Of a DNA stretch of 64,000 nucleotides, positions 20,037 to 63,229 are shown piece after piece. Each line of letters starts with the position of its first letter. Within the stretch, counting starts at the first letter, position 1. Below the pieces are notes generated by a model. The model saw nothing but the letters and a program-made list of their open reading frames with translations. It did not search any database and was not told the DNA's origin. This DNA is from Allomyces arbusculus. Taxonomy: Eukaryota; Blastocladiomycota; Blastocladiomycetes; Blastocladiales; Blastocladiaceae. The stretch is from positions 1 to 64,000 of the forward strand of contig JADHYV010000058.1 of NCBI GenBank assembly GCA_027604705.1. Direction: 5' to 3'. The position numbers were made by a program, and so were the translations under genes.

Positions 20037-20722
20037 GATGGCGGGCCGGTCGGTGGAGAGCGCCGATACGAGCGCGTCACGACGGTATTGGAGGCCGGGG
20101 AGCGTGTGGGAGAGAGCCAGCGGCGGCTGGAGCGCGAGCGCTTGGAGTCTTGGCGATTTGGGCGGGGCCCGCGGCGCCGGCCTCGTTGTTGAGCGTGTCG
20201 TCGCGCGAGTGCAGCCTGACGCGGCACGCAGCAGCAGCACGGCGTGTCGAGAGAGTGCGCTCAGTGGTGGAGCGCGGGTCGGCCGGTGGGTGCGCTGCTG
20301 CGCGGACGACGGTGCGCTGGCCGGGGGGATGGAAGCGCGGTGGAAGGCGGCACCGGAGCGCACCAGCACGCAGCACCACTGGCGGATGGCTCAGCGGCCC
20401 GCCAAGCGACTTGGCGAATGAAAAGGCGAACGCCAAGCCCCGCGGGCTGGGCGATGCCGTCCCCGCCATGACCGCTGCGTGCCGCGGCGCGCGCGGCAAC
20501 TCCCTGCCGCGCGATGCGGGCTTTGCCCTTCCGCCCCGCTGCTCCCACCGTCTGACGTAAAATGGCCCTCGGATCGCCTCCTGCTGACCGACACGCGTTG
20601 CTCCTGCTGCTGTTCGCTGTGCACGCTGCTCCTCCTCCAGCAGCGCTCTCCGCGCACGGCCTCCTTGCACTCCTCTTGGTCCCGACGCAGGCAACGACGG
20701 AGCTCCCCGGCCGCACTGCACC
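20037..20722. promoter_or_regulatory. Divergent promoter region, zincin / RasGEF
   Basis: The 686 bp between opposite start codons shows no TATA box and no obvious repeat. Open frames here are unsupported. Confidence 0.4.
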
Positions 20723-23642
20723 ATGGTCTCCCCACCGACGACGCCCGACGTCACCAGCACGCCGACCCCTGCCCCGCCGGCACCCGCAGCTGTCACGTCA
20801 ACCTCCCCCTCGCCAAGCCGTCATGATCAGCTGCCGCCGCCAGTCTGCACCCGCGTTCACGCAGACCATCTCCAATCCACGACCACCTCGCCCAATCACC
20901 GCGTATCGTTTGCCGCGACCGATTCCGTCAGCGATCTCGCGGCCAGCGCAAGCTCTCGTGGCCCTGCTCGACCCTTTGGTGCCGCACCCGTCTCGCTGCC
21001 CGCAACTGCAGGCGCCGCATCGTCGGTCCCAGTCGGTACTTTGCGCACGCGGCTCCTGTCGAGCGGGAGCACGGCTTCGTCGGCGGCGGCATCCTTCCGC
21101 ACGCCGCGATCGGCGGGACCACCGGCGTGGGCCGGATCGTCGGCCAGCATCATGAGCAGCGCAGGTGGTGCCGACCCCAATGGTAGCAGCACGCACTCGG
21201 GCGCACCCCCACGGTCCGCGTCGCCGACACGGCTGCTGATGCGCGGCTCCGGCGCGTCGGGCAGTCTGGGCAACCTGCTCTCGCTACGGTCGCCGCGACG
21301 TGATGGCAGCGAGCGCAGCCTCGGGTCGACCGACACGCGCGCGTCGCGGCTCGAGCTAACAAGCGAAGGTGCGGCCCGACTACCCTGGCCACCAATGGAA
21401 GAAACGGATTGGCTGACGGTTCTGGCATTTGTAGAGCGTGCCGATTTTGTGGAGTGGTACGCGAACGTACTCTCCGAGCTCAAGGACCCGTTCCCGGGTG
21501 CGCCGCCACCACACGACCAGACCGACGCCCATCCAGCGCAGGAAGTAGACGATGGGCTTGCGCGCTCGCTTCTCGGTCCACCGTCGATGACGTTACGCGA
21601 TGCGCTGTGTACGGCTCGCACGCATCTCGAGGCCCCGCCTGCATCCCCCACTACGTCAGCAGCAGTAGCCCCTGCTCCGCCATCCATGGATGACGTCGAG
21701 GCCCTGACGCTCGACGTCGACCGTGCGCTCCTCTCCCCAAATCGCGACGACGACGACGAATCGACAATCACATCCGTGACCGCTCACCTGGCCGACCTGC
21801 TCATAAACGGCGCCGCACCCCCGGCTCCCCCCGCGGGACTCGCGAAACCGTCCTCTCCACTCCGCACGCGCGCGCACCAGGACCTGACCGACGACCAGAT
21901 TCTGCGCCTGCTCATAACGCACCGCGCGTACCTTGCGCCGTCGATCCTGCTGCGCACGCTCACGACGGCCTTCCTCGACCCGCCCACGACCGACCGGCAA
22001 CTGCAGACGGTCGTGCGGCGCAATATCGAACGTATATTACGCGCCTGGATCAATCACCTCTATGACGACCTCGTGCTCGACCACGCCGTGCCGTTCCTGA
22101 CAAAGTTTGCCGACCATCTCGAGTCGCTCGTTGACGGGGCGCACGCTGACGACGGGACTTGTCACCGCGTCGGGTGTGGGCTCGCGGCGCTTTTGCAGCT
22201 GAAACGGCAGTCGACACTGATTGGCCGGTTACGCAACTTGTCGCGGCCGGCCACGGCCCCGTCGACTCTGTCGCCGACCAAGTCCCCCACCAGCGGCCGC
22301 GCGAAAGCGCATGTTCTCGAACAATTTGCCGACTCAGGCGACGTCGCGCACGCGGCCGACTTGATTACACGGTGCGACCGCGCCGCTGTCTCTGCCCTGA
22401 GCGTCCCGGTGATCGATGCGTTTGTGCGCGGCCAATCGGCGCGGCTCACGCCGGCGCACGCGCTCATCGCGCCGATTCGAGAGTACTTGCAACTGTCGAC
22501 GGGCCTGTTCCATTGGGCGTTGGGAGTCCTCGAGGGGGCACCGACGACGCGCCGACGGATTGCGGCGCTCAAGCTGGTCCTGAAACTCGCAACGGCATTG
22601 CGCGAGCGCGGGGATTGGAATGGCGCCGTGGTGGTCGGTGCCGCGGCGGTGCACCCGTGGTGCATGTTCCAGCGGGTCGTCTGGGAGGTACGATGCCGGA
22701 TCTGGTCGTTGATCTGTGGCTGCAAGCTTCGCTGACGAACGGCGCCCCAACCATGTAGGGCATGTCGGCCAAGTACATCAGCATGGCGCGCGAAATCCTG
22801 GGCCTGATCGACGCGGCCGGCCGGTACTCCAACTACTTCGACGCACTGGAGGACCCTGGCGACGGCAACGGCAGCAGCGGCACGCACGCGCCGATCCCCT
22901 GTGTGGGTGGGTTCGCATCCGTTGTGCCCTCCTCTCCCCGATTCTCCTTAAACTCAACCCACTGATTCATCATCACGCGCTTGGCCCCCTAGTCATCCAT
23001 ATCCTCGTTGCGATGCACCTCGTCACCGAAGCGACCACGCCCGACGCTGTCGACCCTTGGATGGACGTGTACCAACCTCTCCTCGCTGCCGCGGCCGCAT
23101 CAGCCACGACCGCATCCACTCCTTCGCCATCTCCCGCAGCGCCCACGTCGGCCGATACCGTCGCTTACCTCTCCACCGTGCGCGCATTTAATCCGCACGC
23201 CGCATGGGCACGAGACGTCCGCCTTACAACCCCCGACGAGCTCGACGCGTTCATTACCGCGACTACCGCGACTCCCGGCGGCGGCGGGAGTCCACGCCGC
23301 GGGAGTGCCGGAAACAGTGGCGGGTTGCTCAAGTCATTGTCGGGATCGGTCGCGCACCTGTTGGGTGCGAGCAGTGCGTCGCGCAAGCATGCTGCAGCCG
23401 CCGCGGCCACGACGGCGTCGGTCGCGGCAGGGTTGGCGCCGCACGCGGGCGCGTCGGCCGAGTCGGATCATTCGAACGACGCGCCGCGCGGAACAACGTG
23501 GGACGCAGACGCGGTGTTCGGGTTGGGCGATGTGCTGGTCCCGAGTTCGCCTTTGTCGATCGGCGCGCTCGAGGCGGCAGTGAGTGGACTGGTTGTGGAG
23601 GAGACGGTGGAGGAGGAGGGGGAGGAGAGGGGGAGAGACTAG
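20723..23642 (+). CDS. Ras guanine-nucleotide exchange factor (CDC25-homology RasGEF)
   Basis: Predicted activator of a Ras-family GTPase, 920 aa from exons 20723-22687, 22759-22906 and 22993-23642. The first about 215 residues are Ser/Ala/Pro-rich. A RasGEF_N-like helical module begins near residue 388 (DDQILRLLITHRAYL). The CDC25 catalytic domain runs from about 545 to 720: a conserved segment LVLKLATALRERGDWNGA, then FQRVVWE, the exon-2 segment SAKYISMAREIL with the YSNYFDALED helix, and the split motif IPC-VVIHILVAMHL (family equivalent: PCIPFLGxYLxDL). Both introns fall inside the catalytic domain and splicing restores the canonical order. A Gly/Ala-rich, then acidic tail follows. Which Ras is targeted is unknown. 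Confidence 0.85.
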
Positions 23643-24411: not shown

Positions 24412-26353
24412 TCACGCGCTGGCGCCAGTGTCATCGTCACCGCCGCCAACCGGCTCCGACCATGGCGGCACGGTCGGATACACGAGTTTGAGCTCCGACG
24501 ACCCAGACTCGACTTCCAGGACGGCGCCCAGCGACTCGGCGCCGCCCTCCTTCTTGGTGACGTCCTCGACATACCAATACTCGGCACGAATTCGTTGTTT
24601 TGTGACCTTGACAAGAATGTACCCGTGCTGGGCCAAGTCGATCCACTTGGCGCCATGATTGACGCGCCGCACCAGTACGATTCCGGCCTGGTTGCGCGCC
24701 ATAGATCGCAAAGCCGGCGTGCGCGCCGTGACGGGCGGGCCCGCAAACTCAACTGCAGCCGTACGGTTCCCCACCGGAATTTCCGACGCGACCGACCCTT
24801 GGTAGTCGCCCGAGAGCATGACCGTGTTCGGCTTGCGCGCCGCAGCGGCGAGCACCGCGTCGCGCGTCACCGGGTACCCGACCCACGCGTGCGCGGCGGC
24901 ACCGGCCTGCTTGAAGAGCACATCGACAACGGGCGCGAGCATGACCTGGTTCGCGAGCACGCGCCAGTTCGCCTTGGATTTGCGCAGCTTGTTGGTCACC
25001 CACTGCAGCTGCCGGTCCGTGACGAGTTTCGCGCCCGGCGACCCCGGTTGCTCGCGCCCTTCAATCCGCGTGTCCATGAGCACCAAGTCCACCAACTGGC
25101 CAATCTGAAACGTGCGGTAAATCTCGTAGAGCCCCTTTTCCACCTTGTTGGCCGCGCGCGTCGCCGTGTACTCGTGCCATGCGCGAGCTGCGGCGTACTT
25201 GCGCGCCGACCAGTCACCGTGCAGGAGCGGGTGGTGTGCACGCGCACCGCCGCTAAATGCGCGGCCCGAAAACTCGTGGTCGTCCCAGAGACTCACCATG
25301 GCGTGTGCGGCACGCAAGTGCATCATGTCGGCGTCGGACGCGTACTGCGCGTACCGACAGCGGTAGTCGTCGAGTTGCACGAGGTCGTGCCGCGGGGACG
25401 GGACGCGGTCGGACGCGATGAGGCCGTTTGCTTCTGGAAATGTGTTTTGCAGGGTGAGATCCGCCTCGGCGGGCAGTCCCAATTGAAAAGCCAAAGGTGA
25501 GCGTACCTTTTGGCCCCTTTTCGTGCAGTAAGTTGCCGAGCGCCAAGACCAGGTCCACGTCGCTGCGTTCCGCGACGCGGCGGTAGACGTGGAAGTAGCC
25601 CTTTTGCATGTTTGCGCCCGAGACGACGGCAAACGTGACTTCGTTCACGTCGGCACCCGGTTCCGGTAGCGTGCGCGTCTTGCCAATCGGCGACATGGAT
25701 CCGGCCACGACAAACCGATAATAGTAGTTCGTCAATGGCTGCAGGCCCGAAACATCAACCTTGACAGTCCAGTCAGTTGAGGAACTGACGGCCACGGTCC
25801 CGGACTTAATGACCACGTCAAACGCCGGGTGTACGCTCACTTCCCACTTGATCGAGAGCGGCGTGAGCAGGTCGATCTCGACGTCGGGCGTGATCTTGGT
25901 CCAAAGAATGACGGACCGCGCGAGCGGGTCTGTTTGCAAACAAGGCAACATGAGTTTCTGTGTTTGTTCATCGTGCAACCAAACCGTTTCGGCAAAAACA
26001 TCCGCACCCCCTGATGCAACGCCGTGTCGAAACGACGCTGTCCGGACCGTTTTGTCGAAATCGCCGCGCAAGGGCCGGAACGACGGGTGCGGCCCGTAAT
26101 TATCGCCGACGTGGCCCGACATCATGGCGCCGTAATACATGTAGACCACAATGCCGACGCACAGCGACATGGTCACGAAGAGAGCAAGCAAGCGGGTCCA
26201 TGTTGGCGGGTTGTCGACAAACAGGCTGCTGCGGCGCCGCAACGTCTTGCCGCGACGCTCTGCGGTCGCATCGTCGATCGAGCTCTTGGTCGAGCTGCTC
26301 GTCGCACTCGATGATGCCACGCAGGCAACGTCGTCGTCGGTTCGTGCGGTCAT
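24412..26353 (-). CDS. Membrane-anchored PhoD-like phosphatase homologue, probable pseudoenzyme
   Basis: 596 aa from exons 26353-26008, 25929-25507 and 25433-24412. A single membrane segment (about 54-74) after an Arg-rich stretch makes it a type II membrane protein. The PhoD N-terminal domain starts at FRHGVASG-DPLARSVILWT (about 110-126), and the metallophosphatase domain retains WDDHE (306-310) and the overall order. However, three positions that bind metal in PhoD enzymes differ: the Cys of the SC-x-N turn is Gly220, the Asp of the LGDYIYEY motif is Asn248 (LGNLLHEK), and the His of GDxHG is Gln468 (GDYQGS). The downstream paralogue at 26780-28784 keeps all three. Catalysis is therefore doubtful; a binding or regulatory role is possible. 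Confidence 0.87.
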
Positions 26354-26779
26354 TGATTCTTCCCGTTCAATTTGCAGTCGAAAATAGTTGGCCGGTCCCG
26401 TCTCGAGCACAAAGCGCCCAAACGAGCAAAATGCGAGAAGTTGCTTCAATCGTGGCTTGTTTTACTGTTGCTGTGCTGAGCGTGGCGGTGCCGAAATGCG
26501 AACAGCCGTGCTTGAGCTGGCCGGAGCCGGCCGGCAACACCGCAGATGCAAGCTGCAGCGAGGACGCGGTCACGCCCAACTCACGTTTGTCCCTCCACTC
26601 TTCGGTTCTGGTCATACGGCCACAGCTACCTACCACAAATTCGATCTGGGAAGACTGTGCGGTGCTCGTGCAGAGGTGGAGAACACAGCGAAGAAAATGA
26701 GCAAGAAAATGCCGTTCTAGCTGTAATGATATGAAGAGCCTCAACAAACCCCGCCATCATTCGCTCTCCAGCACTGCCT
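26354..26779. promoter_or_regulatory. Gap between tandem PhoD-like genes
   Basis: 426 bp separate the stop of the secreted PhoD copy from the ATG of the membrane-anchored copy on the same strand. It should carry the promoter of the latter; no TATA box was seen. Confidence 0.4.
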
Positions 26780-28784
26780 CTACTGCACCGTCGTGATCCG
26801 GTTCGACCCGCTCGCCGTCTCGAGCACCGCCGCAACAGCCGTCGCGCCACCATCCAGCGTCTTGACGCTCTTCACGTACGTGTACTCGACGCGCACTTTC
26901 GCGGGAGAGATAGCCACAAACATGTACCCGTGGCGGTACAAGTCGATCCACTTGGCCGACGGGTTCGCGAGCCCCAAGACCGGCTTAGCGAGCCCGTTCA
27001 AGATGGCTGAATCCTGCGCCGGCGACGCCGACGTGATCGAGGGACCGACAAATTCGGTCATGACCGACGGCGCATTGGTCTTGACCTTGCCGGACCCATC
27101 AGCGGGAATGTCCGACGCAACGGACCCGTGGAAGTCGCCCGTGAGCATGACCGTGTTGCTGATCTTGTTCTTAGCGAGCACGTCGAGCAGGCCCTGGCGC
27201 GGCCCCGGGTACCCGACCCATGCGTCGGCCGTGATCGGGAGCTCCCAGGCAAACAGCTACGCGTTTGATTTGCGTATGTTAGTTGCTGGTCGATCTTGTC
27301 CACCCGACTGATGCACAGCCACATGAGGAAAACGGACCTTTTCAGGCAGCGTCGCAAACATGACCTGGTTCCCAATAATGCGCCACTTGGCCTTGGACGA
27401 CTTCAAGCTCCCGTAGAGCCACTGCTCCTGCGCGGCACCCATAATCTGGCGCGACGCTCTGTCGCCCTTGGCCTGCTCGGCGCGCCCGTCGATACGCGTG
27501 TCGAGCATGATCAGGTCGACCAAGTTGCCAATCTGGAACGACCGGTAGACGCGGTACTCATCGCCGACAGCCTGCGACGGGCGAATCGGAATGTTCTCGT
27601 GGAAAGCGCGCATACCCGCGAGCTTGCGTGGACCCCAAGGGCCGTCGCGCTTGTCGTCCTGGTCCACGGCCCCACCGACCCACGCGTTGTCGGCAAACTC
27701 GTGATCGTCCCAGACGACAATCCAGGGCTTTTGCGCGTGCAGAAGCTGCAGCTGCGGGTCCGACTTGTACTGGCCATAACGCATGCGGTAGTCGGTGATG
27801 TTGCTGATCACCTTGGCCGGCACCGGGTCGCGCGACGCCGGCATCGCACCGCCAACGGGCTTGTAGCCTGGCAGATCGTACTCGTAGATGTAGCTATTTG
27901 CGAAACCGGTCAGATAATTGGGTTAAAGATCACGAACGGTCACAATGAGCGAGGGGTGGGGAGGCGTCCCCCACTCTGAAGTCCAAATACGTACTCGCCC
28001 AAGGCCAACACAAAGTCGACGTCGTTGCGCTTGGCGATCGCCTCGTAGGCATGGAAGTACCCGTGCGGCATGTTGGAGCACGAAACGACCGCCATGTTGA
28101 GCGACGCAAGGTCGGCCGTGTTGCTGACGAGTGTCTTGGTGCGGCCGACGGGAGAGACCTGGTCGTCGACCGTGAAACGGTAATAGTAGGAGGTCGCGGG
28201 GTTCAGGCCCTGCACGTCGACCTTGACCTGATCGCCGCATGATTATCATGTCGCGAAAACCGGGTGGTGAGTGTCAGCTTTTTCCATCCAACACAACAGG
28301 GCGCCCGAAAACTGCAGCAAGCTGAAGCACGAACCGAATAGCCGACATCGTCCGACGTGACGACCGCGCCCTGCTTGACGATCGCCGAGAACCCGGCATC
28401 CGTCGCGACCTGGTACTGCACCGTGACAGGCGCGTTGGCCGTCGTCGGGGTGACGCGCGTCAAAATAATCACGGCGTTCTCGAGCGGATCGCCCGAGGCG
28501 ACGCCGTGCAAGAACTTGGCCGCCGGACCACCGGCTTCCAGCTTGGGCGCCGGCTTGAGCAGCTTCGCCTTGTGGTGCGCGCTGAGCGGCACGGCCAGCT
28601 TCGGCACGTTCGCGTAAGGCGACTTGAACGCTAGATTATCGTCGTACCGCGCGACGAGCGTGTCGCGCGAAATTTTGCTTGCAGCAAAGGACGGCGCGGC
28701 AAACTCGACGGCGTGCGTGGACGTGGCGAGGACGAGGAGCACAGCCGCGGCCGAGACGGCGAGCAGGTGGTGAATGGCCGGCAT
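26780..28784 (-). CDS. Secreted PhoD-like alkaline phosphatase/phosphodiesterase
   Basis: 571 aa from exons 28784-28335, 28227-27995, 27893-27338 and 27256-26780. Residues 1-25 are a signal peptide (LAVSAAAVLLVLATSTHA). The PhoD N-terminal domain includes FLHGVASGDPLENAVIILT. The catalytic domain keeps Cys200 (VVSCSN), Asp228 and Tyr231 (LGDYIYEY), WDDHE (289-293) and His456 (GDFHGS), the set that binds iron and calcium in characterised PhoD. Splicing is convincing: LG-D-YIYEY is only complete after joining exons 2 and 3. The first donor is GTTCGT, the third GTCCGT. The enzyme should hydrolyse phosphomonoesters or diesters outside the cell or in an acidic compartment for phosphate scavenging. 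It is a tandem paralogue of the gene at 24412-26353. Confidence 0.92.
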
Positions 28785-57790: not shown

Positions 57791-60700
57791 CTATTGCATG
57801 ATGAACTGCTCGGTGCGCAACAACACGGCATGCAAGCTCGTGCGCAAATCCTCGGCCACCTCGTACATCAACAAGTCGATGGCGAGCCGGTAGAACCGCT
57901 TGATGTGTCGTTGGAACGGCTCGTCATCGAGCAAGACCAGACCATTCAAGATCGTAAGCAGCACCGGCTTCCACGCGGCCGCGTTGCGCTTGCGCGACTC
58001 GGCGTCCATGTCGCGGTAAGCCTCGAGAATCGCGACCGCCAGCGGGACCAACTTGTTCTCGACGGCGGCACGCTCGGCCATCCGGTCAAGCGACGGGTCG
58101 CCGTACATGTGGAAGAGCAAGTGCAGCAGGCACGTTACCGACGACGTCTCTTGCTTGAGCAAATTGGGCAATTGCTTGGTGAACCCGGACTTCCACAAGG
58201 CCGTGCGCAGCTCGAGGTTGCCGTTGAACGCGCGTGCAAACTGGTACGACTTGTCGAGCGCGGCAACGAGGGCCAGCAAGTGTCGCGCCTGCATGCTCGC
58301 ATACACGGCCTCGATCGAGGTCGTCTCAAGTACCGTCTGAATGAGAAGCAGCTGCAGCACGCACTTGACGATTATCTGCTGGAACCGCGCCTGCTGGTCG
58401 GTCGCGGACGTGGCGCCGTCAAGCGGAGACGCAGCTGTGGCCGGATCCATGAGCGCGACCGCCGTCGTCGCTTCAAACAAGTCGGACCACGTCGCGCATA
58501 CTTGGTCCCACTCGCTGTCCGACAACATCTTACAGTTGCGTTCCATGAGCTGCTGTAAGCACGAGGTACCGAGCCGGGCCAGCGTCTCGTTCTCCTGCAT
58601 GATGCACGCCTTGAGCAGCGACAGCACGTCCGTGAGCTTGTGCACAAGCTGGTCGTAATACGCCCCAAACAAGTCGATGAACTGGCGCAGTGCCGCAATT
58701 AACGTCGTGCTCAACCAGACACTTAGTTCCTCGCCGCGTGCGGCACGTGAACTCGTCGGTTCCATGACGGGCGCAAATAGCGCAAACAAGATATCTGCGG
58801 CCACGCGTTTCCAGAACGCTGGCGAGAACCGCGCGCCGTGGTCACGCAGGACGGCAAACAGGTAATTGAGCGCGCGCGTGCGCACTTCGAGCTCGCATTC
58901 CACGACGACGAGATAGAGCGCATGCAACGCCGCAAACCACTCGGGCTCGTCAAACTTGTCGCGGTCGTCGACGAGCACGCGCAATGACCGGTGAATCGTC
59001 TCGACCGCTTGCAGCGCCACCTTTTGCGACACTTTCGCGGCCCGGCAATACGCGACTAGCGTGTCCATGGCGTCCGTGTAGTACCCGGCCTCGCGCACTG
59101 CCGGCAAATGCTGTGCGAAAATTACCTTGGCCGCATCAAACGAGAACGTGAACAACGGCTCGTACGTCTCGCGCGCGGCCATGGCCGTATACACGGCCAA
59201 CACGGCCTTCCACCCGGACCGCAATACGGGCGCGCGCGCGGCGACAATCTGCTGTAAACACCGCACGGCCATTTCGCGCACAGGGATCGCGTCGTGGTGC
59301 GCGACGACATGTTCAAACGGCCGCAGAAACTCGCGCTGGAACTTGAAGTTGGGCAATTCGTCCTTTTCCAAGAACTTCATGGCGAGTTGCCGCAGCGAGT
59401 CGAGCGCGAAATATGCGACTTGTTCGTTGGCATTGCACCCGACGCGGTTGAAATGCTGCCCGAGAATCGTCCACAGGTTGACCCACTCGACGCGAATGCG
59501 CGACATGTTGTAGTAGCTGATTTCCACGAGCTTGGTGAGCGAGTACATGCGCGGAATCTCCTCGGTCGAGACGGTGCACAGCGCATCAACGAAATCGACG
59601 ATACCGGCACCGTTCAGCTTGGCCGACCCGGCAAAGATCTTGTCAGTCGCCACGACAATACTCTGCGAGGTTGTTTCCTGGTGCACGGCAGAGAGCGGGC
59701 CTTCGGTCTTTTCCGCGCCAATCACGTGGAAGCGCTCGAGCTGCGAAATGCACCGCAAGACTTCGAGCCACGATTTCTTGAGCGCGTTCCCCTGCGTCAT
59801 GGCCACTTCGAGCAACGTCTTGATGGCCCCGAAATTCTTGTCGCGCATATCCGTCGCGCTCGCCGAGAGCAGCGTGAAATTGTAGACGGTCGTGACCAGC
59901 GCATTGCGTTCAAGCTCCAAGTCAAACACGCACGCGACCGTAATCGCGTGCTTGAACGCCTCGAGCGTCTGTGCTGTCGCCTGCGGGTCGTCGGACGTTT
60001 GCAGCACCGTCGAAAGCGCCGCGAGCGATGCCATCCAAACGAGCTCAAACATGTTGCGCACGTGCTCGGAATGCAGCGCGACAATCCACGACGGAGCGCG
60101 CTTGTTGCGCTTCTTGTCAAAAATCGCCTCCACCTTGGCGACGATTTCCTCGAGCGCCGACGCAAACGCTTCGCGCCGGGCACGACGGGACACCGACACG
60201 GCCGACGTGTTGGAAACCGCCGCTTTCGCGGCCGCCGCCGCGAGCGGGTCGTCCTTGAGCTTGATCTCATGCTCGGCAATCGTGTCGTAAATCTCGAGCA
60301 AAAACTCAGCGGGCAAGTCCTCGTTATCGTTGATGCCGCGGTTGTTGCGCAAGAAGTCGTCCTTGGACATGCGTTTCTTGACCTGTGGCGAATGCAAGTC
60401 GGTGTTGAGCAGAATCACCGAGTAGGCCAAGACGTAGGCCGCGTCAGGGTTCGCAAACACGTTCTCCGGATCGACCTTGGCGTTTGTGTAATACCGTTCG
60501 GCAAACTTGAGCATCATGCGATCAATCTTTTGCGACTCGCCCGGAAGTCGAAACTGCTGCAAGAACTCGCGCATCGCATCGACAAACGACATGCCCGTGA
60601 AATCGAGTTGGTCGACAAACGCGTGCATTACGGCAATCGCCTCCGGGTCGCCCTCGCCAAGGTACTCGCCGAGCGACTGCTTGTTGAGCCCCTCCGTATT

Positions 60701-63229
60701 ATGCAGCCACTGCGCAATCTCGCCCGGGTTCGCCGTGAGCATGCCATGATCGACCAGGTACTGCAACCCGCGCTTGGGTTTGCGATTGAACTGCTGAATC
60801 GCCTCGGTCAATACCGTCTTCTTCTGCTTGCTCGTCTCGAGTTGTTCCGGGTTATCGGCCGCGACCGACAGATCGGCCCCGGCGCCAACGACAGACGGCG
60901 GCCGAGCACCACCGACGACAGTCCCGGCATCGCTCGCCGACCCGTTCACGCCATCCACCAACGACCCAACCATGGACGGTGCGCGCCCATGCGTTGCCGC
61001 CGACCCCGACACTGCGAGCGACCCGCCCGTGCCCGAATCTGCCACGGCCGAGGCCGCGGCAGCACCGACCTGCGACGCCGACAGCGGCCGCGGCGCCCGA
61101 TGGATTGCAATCCACTCGGCGAGCGACTTCAACCCGGTACACAGCGTCGTGAGCGCGACCTTATGCACGTCTTGCGCCGCCGCGGCCGCCGGGTCGGTCG
61201 CCGGATCCAGGGGCGGCAACATGGACGGCGGCGCCGTGACTTGCCGCGCGGCCAAGTTCATGATGCGCTCGTAGATGTTATCGAGCGCGTCCGGATTACA
61301 GTCGTAGTTGATATAAATTTCGACGACGACCTGTGGCCGCGCCATGATTTTCGTGAGCGCCTGCAGAATGGCCGATTTCTGGGCCGTGGTGGCCGCGCGC
61401 ATTTCGAGAATGCTGAGCACGACTTCGCTGAGCAGGACCTCGATTTCCTTTTTCAGGCTTTGCCGCAGGTGCAACACGAGTTCGACAAACACGTCGAGCG
61501 CGACCTTGTAAATCGGCGGGATCGGCGAGGCCAGGGCGCGGCCGACGGCCAAGCCGAGGTACGCGCGCGTTGCTTCGAGGAATGTTGAGGGTACCCACGC
61601 CGATCCCGGTGGGGCGGGGGGCGCCGGCGGGACGTAGCACCCGCGGAAGAAGACGGCCGTGTAGGACGTGATGCACAGCTGGATCAGTTGCAGCGACAAA
61701 ACGCGTGAGTTGATCGATGCCGACCGCACGTCGAGTGAGGTGGACTCGCTGACGGCCTTGGTCGAGAGCTTGCACAGCGCGCGGAAGACCAGGTAGGCAT
61801 CGCGCACAAAGAGCTCGTTGGTCGTCGCGGTCGCGGGGTCTTCGAAAAACTGCACCGACCCGCGTCGCGCATCGAGGTGCGGGGTCGCAGGGACAGCTGT
61901 CGTGGTTGCGGGTGAGTCGGGCACGGAACCCGTTGCTGGGGTATCGGACGCAGGTCGCTCGGTGTCATCGCCCTCGTCGTCGTCACCACGCGTGCGCGCG
62001 TCGTCGTCGTCGTCAGAGATCGGCGGCGCGTGCGGGACGTGCGGCGACGGCGGAATCGCAGTCGCCACGGCTGCGGCCAAATCGGGTGACCCGAGCGGCG
62101 AGTGCGTCGGCGTCGGTTCCACGACTTCCGGCCGAATCTGCGACGGCGGTGTCGAGATCATACTCGGTGCGACCGAGGACCTTTGCACATTCGTGCCAAT
62201 CGTGCTCGCGCGGCCCGCGGTACTCGACCGCGCCATGAGCGGGTTAGGTGTCGTGGCCGCACGCGCGAAAATGACATTGATCATTTGCGTGAGCGCACCC
62301 TGCGCAACCGTCTGGATCGTGATTGACTTTGTGACGAGAAAAATGTTCCAGGACGTGCGAACGGCCTTGAGCAGCACGTTGCCATGAATCGGGACGCCCG
62401 TCGACGAAACGGCGGCCAGCAACGCCTTGATCACTTGCAAATGCACTTTTTCGTCCGTGTTTTCGCCGATATTGCATTCGCAAATCAGGTCAATGGCCAC
62501 GTCGAGCAGTGGGCGCGACTCGTTATTGGCGCTGTCAGTCGTGCTGCCACCAGATGGTGGCGCAGAAGACGTGGCATTGAGCAGGTCCGGCATCGACTCA
62601 ACATCTTGCCGAGCGACCGAGGCCACGTCGCGGTCGACGAGCACGTTGTAGGAAATGAGTTTCGAAATGCAGTCGAGCGAAATGGCGATCAGGGCCGCGG
62701 ACCGCGACGCGCAGGCGAGCTGGAAGGGCTCGAACATGGCGCGCATGACCTCGGGCGTGAGCAGGTTCATGCCGCTAGCGAACGGAAAGGACCGACGGTC
62801 AGTCGAATATCCCTTCCCTGGCGCCACGCGAACGACTCGGGAGCAGTCGCATGGGCGTATTCAATGAGGCGAGACGCGCGTACCTTGGTGCCGTGTCGGA
62901 CGAGGCCTCGTCAATGAGCGTCTTGAGCTTGTCTAGTTAATGCAATAAGCGCATCTCGTCGTCAGTCTCTCTGTCGCTCATTCAGGAGCCGGCACCGCAT
63001 CGTCGACTCGCGCAGTTGCAACCTGAGCCCCGCAAAGGAAACACGCCAAGAAGAACGTACTCAGCGCGGCCGACGACGAGTCCTTGAGCTTGGGCAGCCG
63101 GCGCACGTCTTTGAGCGCGAGCATCTTTTGCAGCGCGTCCACGACAAAGACGGCGGCCGGGTTGGCAGCGCCGCTCGCCTGCGAGACAGCGCGCAGCTGC
63201 GACTGCGCCGCACCGGCATGGCCGTTCAT
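57791..63229 (-). CDS. Large Arf guanine-nucleotide exchange factor, Sec7/BIG type
   Basis: Activates Arf GTPases at the trans-Golgi for coat recruitment. 1733 aa from exons 63229-63061, 62932-62884 and 62774-57791. Exon 1 encodes the start of the DCB dimerisation domain (FVVDALQKMLALKDVRRLPK); exon 2 joins as AALNKLKTLIDEA; exon 3 continues with FEPFQLACASRSAALIAISL. A disordered acidic insert (about 230-330) precedes the HUS domain (DAYLVFRALCKLSTKAV). The Sec7 domain covers about 735-925 with catalytic Glu819 in RLPGESQKID, QWLHNTEGLNKQSLGEYLG and the NTDLHSPQVKKRMS helix. HDS1-4 helical repeats fill the rest, including ISYYNMSRIRVEW. An in-frame Met at 63262 would add 11 residues. All domains of the BIG/Sec7p architecture are present. 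Confidence 0.95.

Follow-up and report, generated by a model that had tools for sequence, protein, structure and literature searches.

We report a pair of adjacent PhoD homologues, termed A and B, for which the best explanation, and in our judgement a likely one, is that A is an old, maintained, membrane-anchored pseudophosphatase that acts by binding, with B a secreted, ordinary PhoD. PhoD is a widespread phosphorus-scavenging enzyme. Its Fe3+ site is invariant in the closest 82 relatives sampled, yet is wholly gone in the apparently maintained homologue A, which, as far as the open-access literature tells, may be the first PhoD pseudophosphatase to be described; a limited search of that literature for PhoD and pseudophosphatase together found nothing, and searches on eukaryotic PhoD yielded no useful paper. 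As A adjoins a predicted active copy, a partner or receptor role would be directly testable.

Genomic organization of the PhoD pair

Within the window (i.e., the whole 64,000-nucleotide stretch of DNA that was analysed), the two genes lie head-to-tail on the minus strand at 24412-28784, with B first in transcription order, followed by A. When the gene models were reconstructed from the sequence, using GT-AG introns, they spanned exactly these positions. B (28784-26780) encodes a 571-aa PhoD phosphatase with a signal-peptide-like N-terminus in four exons (28784-28335, 28227-27995, 27893-27338, and 27256-26780), and A (26353-24412) encodes a 596-aa PhoD homologue with a predicted anchor in three (26353-26008, 25929-25507, and 25433-24412); a 426-bp spacer (26354-26779) runs from the B stop codon to the A start codon. 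A search of the window for a third PhoD copy found none besides A and B. Intron 1 of A (25930-26007; 78 bp) is in frame and stop-free, such that its retention would add 26 residues between HGVASG and DPL, making a longer isoform possible.

The surrounding DNA is eukaryotic in character, with short GT-AG introns and a GC content of about 62%, and the neighbouring genes encode a Sec7/BIG ARF-GEF, a carnitine acyltransferase, and WD40 proteins. The 1689-aa Sec7/BIG-type ARF-GEF (57791-62860, minus strand) is a single open frame without introns, unlike the PhoD genes. A 715-aa open frame on the plus strand (20588-22735) matches the RasGEF N-terminal motif weakly, at 22.0 bits against a Pfam cut-off of 28.3, and tRNA and Rfam scans of the window gave no match.

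Both proteins matched the PhoD (PF09423) and PhoD_N (PF16655) profiles, at 334.9 and 107.1 bits for B and at 229.1 and 99.3 bits for A, with E values of 1e-28 to 1e-100, beyond chance. Each also matched B. subtilis PhoD (2YEQ) at E 6e-59 or better, and aligned with solved PhoD structures over ~460-500 residues. To one another, A and B are 42% identical over 486 columns (BLASTP). By its sequence, B is thus a PhoD family member, with both domains and the metal-ligand residues present; A is a member by homology, with both domains present and a modelled fold that matches 2YEQ. The latter model covers exon 3 alone (339 residues; mean pLDDT 81.5, pTM 0.82), was built with 27 bacterial homologues, and takes in one of the four iron-ligand positions lost in A; its best PDB match was 2YEQ (E 1.5e-19), followed by purple acid phosphatases, with Vps29 as a weak fold match. 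For the exon-3 part, this best match agrees with the original prediction that A keeps the PhoD fold.

The two N-termini differ. In B, residues 1-25 (MPAIHHLLAVSAAAVLLVLATSTHA; 28710-28784, minus strand) resemble a signal peptide in sequence and hydropathy, and by hydropathy only, this stretch ends between THA and VEF. In A, a single hydrophobic segment at ~residues 51-78 (TWTRLLALFVTMSLCVGIVVYMYYGAMM; 26120-26203, minus strand; mean hydropathy up to 2.26) follows a basic RRGKTLRRRSS stretch and is a predicted signal-anchor, from which hydropathy suggests a membrane-anchored, type II topology. An anchor in A against a signal peptide in B had been proposed and stands by hydropathy; that A "gained" its segment implies a direction, which is readable only with orthologues.

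Metal-ligand positions of B and A

B. subtilis PhoD (2YEQ) served as the reference for nine metal-ligand positions. According to its structural report, the site comprises one Fe3+ and two Ca2+, the iron has a tyrosine ligand, and, apart from its Cys, the Fe3+ ligand set matches that of purple acid phosphatases (PMC4223295). Given this equivalence, an iron-ligand His was assigned, and our alignment places the Tyr at position 210 and the His at 438. The same report describes alanine variants of C180, D207, D265, D266, N271, N272, and D436, of which C180A, N271A, and N272A abolished activity, with D207A cutting it drastically (PMC4223295).

Listed in order, the residues at the nine positions are C D Y D D N N D H in B. 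subtilis PhoD, C D Y D D D N D H in B, and G N H D D G R D Q in A. All nine residues of B (C200, D228, Y231, D290, D291, D296, N297, D454, and H456) are acceptable; D296 replaces B. subtilis Asn271, and Asp occupies that position in 25/82 relatives. The Cys200 codon lies at 28078-28080, and the TGDFHGS motif bearing Asp454 and His456 lies at 27122-27142 (both minus strand). Cys200 is the sole cysteine of B. The retention in B of Cys200, Asp228, Tyr231, and His456 had been predicted under residue numbers that match our rebuilt gene.

In A (G220, N248, H251, D307, D308, G313, R314, D466, and Q468), six of the nine metal ligands are absent, namely the complete Fe3+ set of four and the two CaB Asn residues. 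On the minus strand, (i) Gly220 replaces the Fe-ligand Cys (25616-25618), (ii) Asn248-Leu-Leu-His251 replaces the Fe-ligand Asp and Tyr (25523-25534), (iii) WDDHEFSGRAF (306-316; 25255-25287) keeps Asp307 and Asp308, with the CaB Asn residues changed to Gly313 and Arg314, and (iv) SGDYQGS (464-470; 24793-24813) keeps Asp466, with the Fe-ligand His changed to Gln468. Gly220, Asn248, and Gln468 were thus correctly named in the original prediction, which understated the losses (three named, six found); WDDHE (306-310) is indeed retained in an intact spliced frame in the rebuilt model. Since the counterpart of Tyr231 has been replaced as well (His251), the whole iron site of A is gone. Examined as a catalytic PhoD, A therefore has neither the Fe3+ ligand set nor, with Gly313 and Arg314 in place, the CaB Asn/Asp ligands, and no substitute ligands elsewhere in A were seen in the alignment. 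Mis-splicing was rejected as a source of the substitutions, the replaced residues being exonic and in clear aligned blocks (VSGANM, LALGNLLH, WDDHEFSGRAF, and LSGDYQGS). As the loss of just one of several of these ligands inactivates B. subtilis PhoD, it is very probable that A has no catalytic activity. A single Ca2+ might still be held by Asp307, Asp308, Asp466, and perhaps Asn248, which leaves some room for residual or new metal chemistry.

Ligand conservation among PhoD proteins

Our main comparison set held 82 PhoDs (80 bacterial loci and two solved proteins), in which the Cys, Asp, Tyr, Asp, Asp, Asp, and His ligand columns are invariant (82/82); the scan patterns for the bacterial loci included WDDHE and GVASGD, so the conservation of D265/D266 is partly a matter of sample selection, which does not apply to C, D207, Y, D436, and H. 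A second set of 60 further loci, drawn from 299 genomes of two phyla, contains many distant PhoD paralogues, with some genes doubled and at least two loci re-found from the earlier set. These rows retain the Asp and Tyr of the Fe site wherever the region is present; the Cys is changed to Gly in three of the 60, the D436/H438 pair differs in one weak row of doubtful alignment, and the CaB positions are variable in distant rows. None of these 60, mostly distant, rows lacks more than one Fe ligand, and the ligand pattern of A was not found among the 82 PhoDs and 60 further rows.

Bacterial pseudo-PhoDs were considered as a match for A and rejected, as the weaker rows have CaB variants or, in some cases, the Cys-to-Gly change, not the pattern of A. 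Distant bacterial PhoD paralogues (L092-L095, L107, L109, and L110) retain the Fe-site Asp and Tyr, and either have Trp and Lys/Leu/Gln as their CaB residues or have Gly in place of the Cys; these are possibly a separate Ca-site variant group. No PhoD relatives were found in viral contigs.

History of the pair

A and B group as sisters, apart from the 82 other PhoDs, in the 84-row tree (SH-aLRT 99), with branch lengths of 1.53 and 0.97 changes per site, respectively; both are long branches, for which the program warns of long-branch attraction. Placed singly in trees, neither protein joins a bacterial group with support; this would fit a shared eukaryotic origin of A and B without proving it. 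The genes have no intron position in common (codons 116 and 257 in A; codons 151, 228, and 414 in B), meaning that the duplication is old, or that the introns came later. The tandem duplication originally proposed is partly supported: the sister grouping is in its favour, tempered by the long branches and the attraction warning, and the absence of a common intron points to an old split.

Proposed role of A

In the model that we favour, B would be a secreted Fe3+/Ca2+ phosphatase/phosphodiesterase of the ordinary PhoD type, and A an old, maintained paralogue turned membrane-anchored pseudophosphatase. The N-terminus of A would be cytosolic, with its PhoD domain towards the lumen or the outside. 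This domain would fold, and with neither the Fe3+ site nor the second calcium site, it would not hydrolyse phosphate esters. A is thus probably a non-enzymatic partner or receptor, and would most likely bind the secreted copy B, other proteins, or phosphate esters, the latter via a remaining pocket of three Asp residues and Arg314 where a calcium ligand stood. Which of these A binds is a matter of speculation. As a broader and tentative proposal, the A lineage would be a tethered partner or phosphate-ester receptor for the adjacent secreted PhoD, the two forming a system of prozyme-like or receptor type for acquiring extracellular phosphorus.

One form of this model, possible though not one we would expect, is that dead A binds, regulates, or localises secreted B in a prozyme-like manner; tethered A would capture B within the secretory pathway or on the cell surface. 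The adjacency of A and B on the same strand and their sister relationship would suit such a partnership, as would, by analogy, the precedent of dead paralogues activating a live partner (PMC5201418, PMC3663545). Against it, 39-42% identity and the lack of common introns indicate a long separate history of the two genes. Nor are we aware of any indication that PhoD depends on a partner.

A second form, which we regard as unlikely, casts A as a membrane receptor or sensor that binds phosphate esters without cleaving them, with its Ser/Thr-rich cytosolic tail and RRRSS motif signalling inward. The predicted type II topology, which would leave a tail of ~50 residues in the cytosol, is consistent with this role, as are Arg314 at a former Ca2+-ligand position and the three kept Asp residues. 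However, A has no signalling domain, and the further losses of Tyr229 (to Leu249) and Asp424 (to His438) would fit relaxation of the pocket equally well.

As opposed to a binding role, A might remain catalytic through a reduced metal site, with Ca2+ or another ion held at Asp307, Asp308, Asp466, Asn248, and His251. Three Asp residues are kept, and the Asn, His, and Gln replacements can bind metals; nonetheless, the Fe3+ site has lost all four of its ligands, among them the Asp that D207A shows to be needed, and single substitutions abolish the activity of B. subtilis PhoD (PMC4223295). No other metallophosphatase motif has been restored in A, and we consider residual catalysis quite improbable.

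Evidence bearing on the maintenance of A

The earlier claim of catalytic ligands lost with the frame kept agrees with our findings, six of nine ligands being gone from an intact gene. No stop occurs in the 596 codons of A, against a mean of 11.3 and a minimum of 4 in 200 runs of simulated neutral decay starting from B and proceeding to the same identity as A. The GC3 of A is 0.80, versus an intron GC of 0.45-0.55, and its codon adaptation (0.65) is close to that of the neighbouring Sec7 gene (0.67) and well above the 0.34-0.37 of the other forward frames. A keeps 32/35 non-ligand invariant columns versus 3/7 ligand columns (Fisher p=0.009), a contrast that is tied to the selection of columns without variation among bacteria and that fades as the threshold is relaxed (p=0.04 at 95%, 0.07 at 90%). 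The three non-ligand losses are Tyr229 to Leu249, Pro330 to Ala347, and Asp424 to His438; of these, Leu249 sits between two lost ligands. Synonymous changes between A and B are near saturation (pS 0.61), making the dN/dS of ~0.5 (Nei-Gojobori) unreliable; the stop count, codon bias, and kept invariants speak against decay, and do not measure selection on the branch of A.

That A is instead a relic under relaxed selection, heading to a pseudogene, would accord with its longer branch and with the ligand losses that relaxation would permit, yet is highly improbable, because its spliced frame is intact despite divergence to 39-42% identity, with no stop where about 11 are expected, normal codon bias, and the kept non-ligand invariants.

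Comparison with known systems

A and B have in common with B. subtilis PhoD (2YEQ) and a secreted bacterial alkaline phosphatase (9UYA) the two-domain architecture and fold, and B has the same Cys/Asp/Tyr/His Fe3+ set and Ca2+ ligands. A differs from these enzymes in having none of the four Fe3+ ligands and neither CaB Asn, and in appearing signal-anchored instead of secreted; introns set both A and B apart from them.

Two further proteins illustrate separate features of the proposed pseudophosphatase. Vps29 is a retromer subunit in which the metallophosphoesterase fold serves binding, not catalysis; it is a distant fold relative of A, small and cytosolic, and not a PhoD paralogue. Yeast Pho8 is a type II membrane alkaline phosphatase with the layout predicted for A (i.e., a cytosolic N-tail, one signal anchor, and a lumenal phosphatase-like domain), and differs from A in having an unrelated PhoA-type fold and in being active.

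With respect to the pairing itself, the trypanosome AdoMetDC prozyme (PMC5201418) and deoxyhypusine synthase (PMC3663545) each involve a dead paralogue that activates a live partner. These are other enzymes, for which the partnership has been shown, whereas for A and B it is a proposal; what they would have in common with A and B is that one genome maintains both an active enzyme and a catalytically dead sister.
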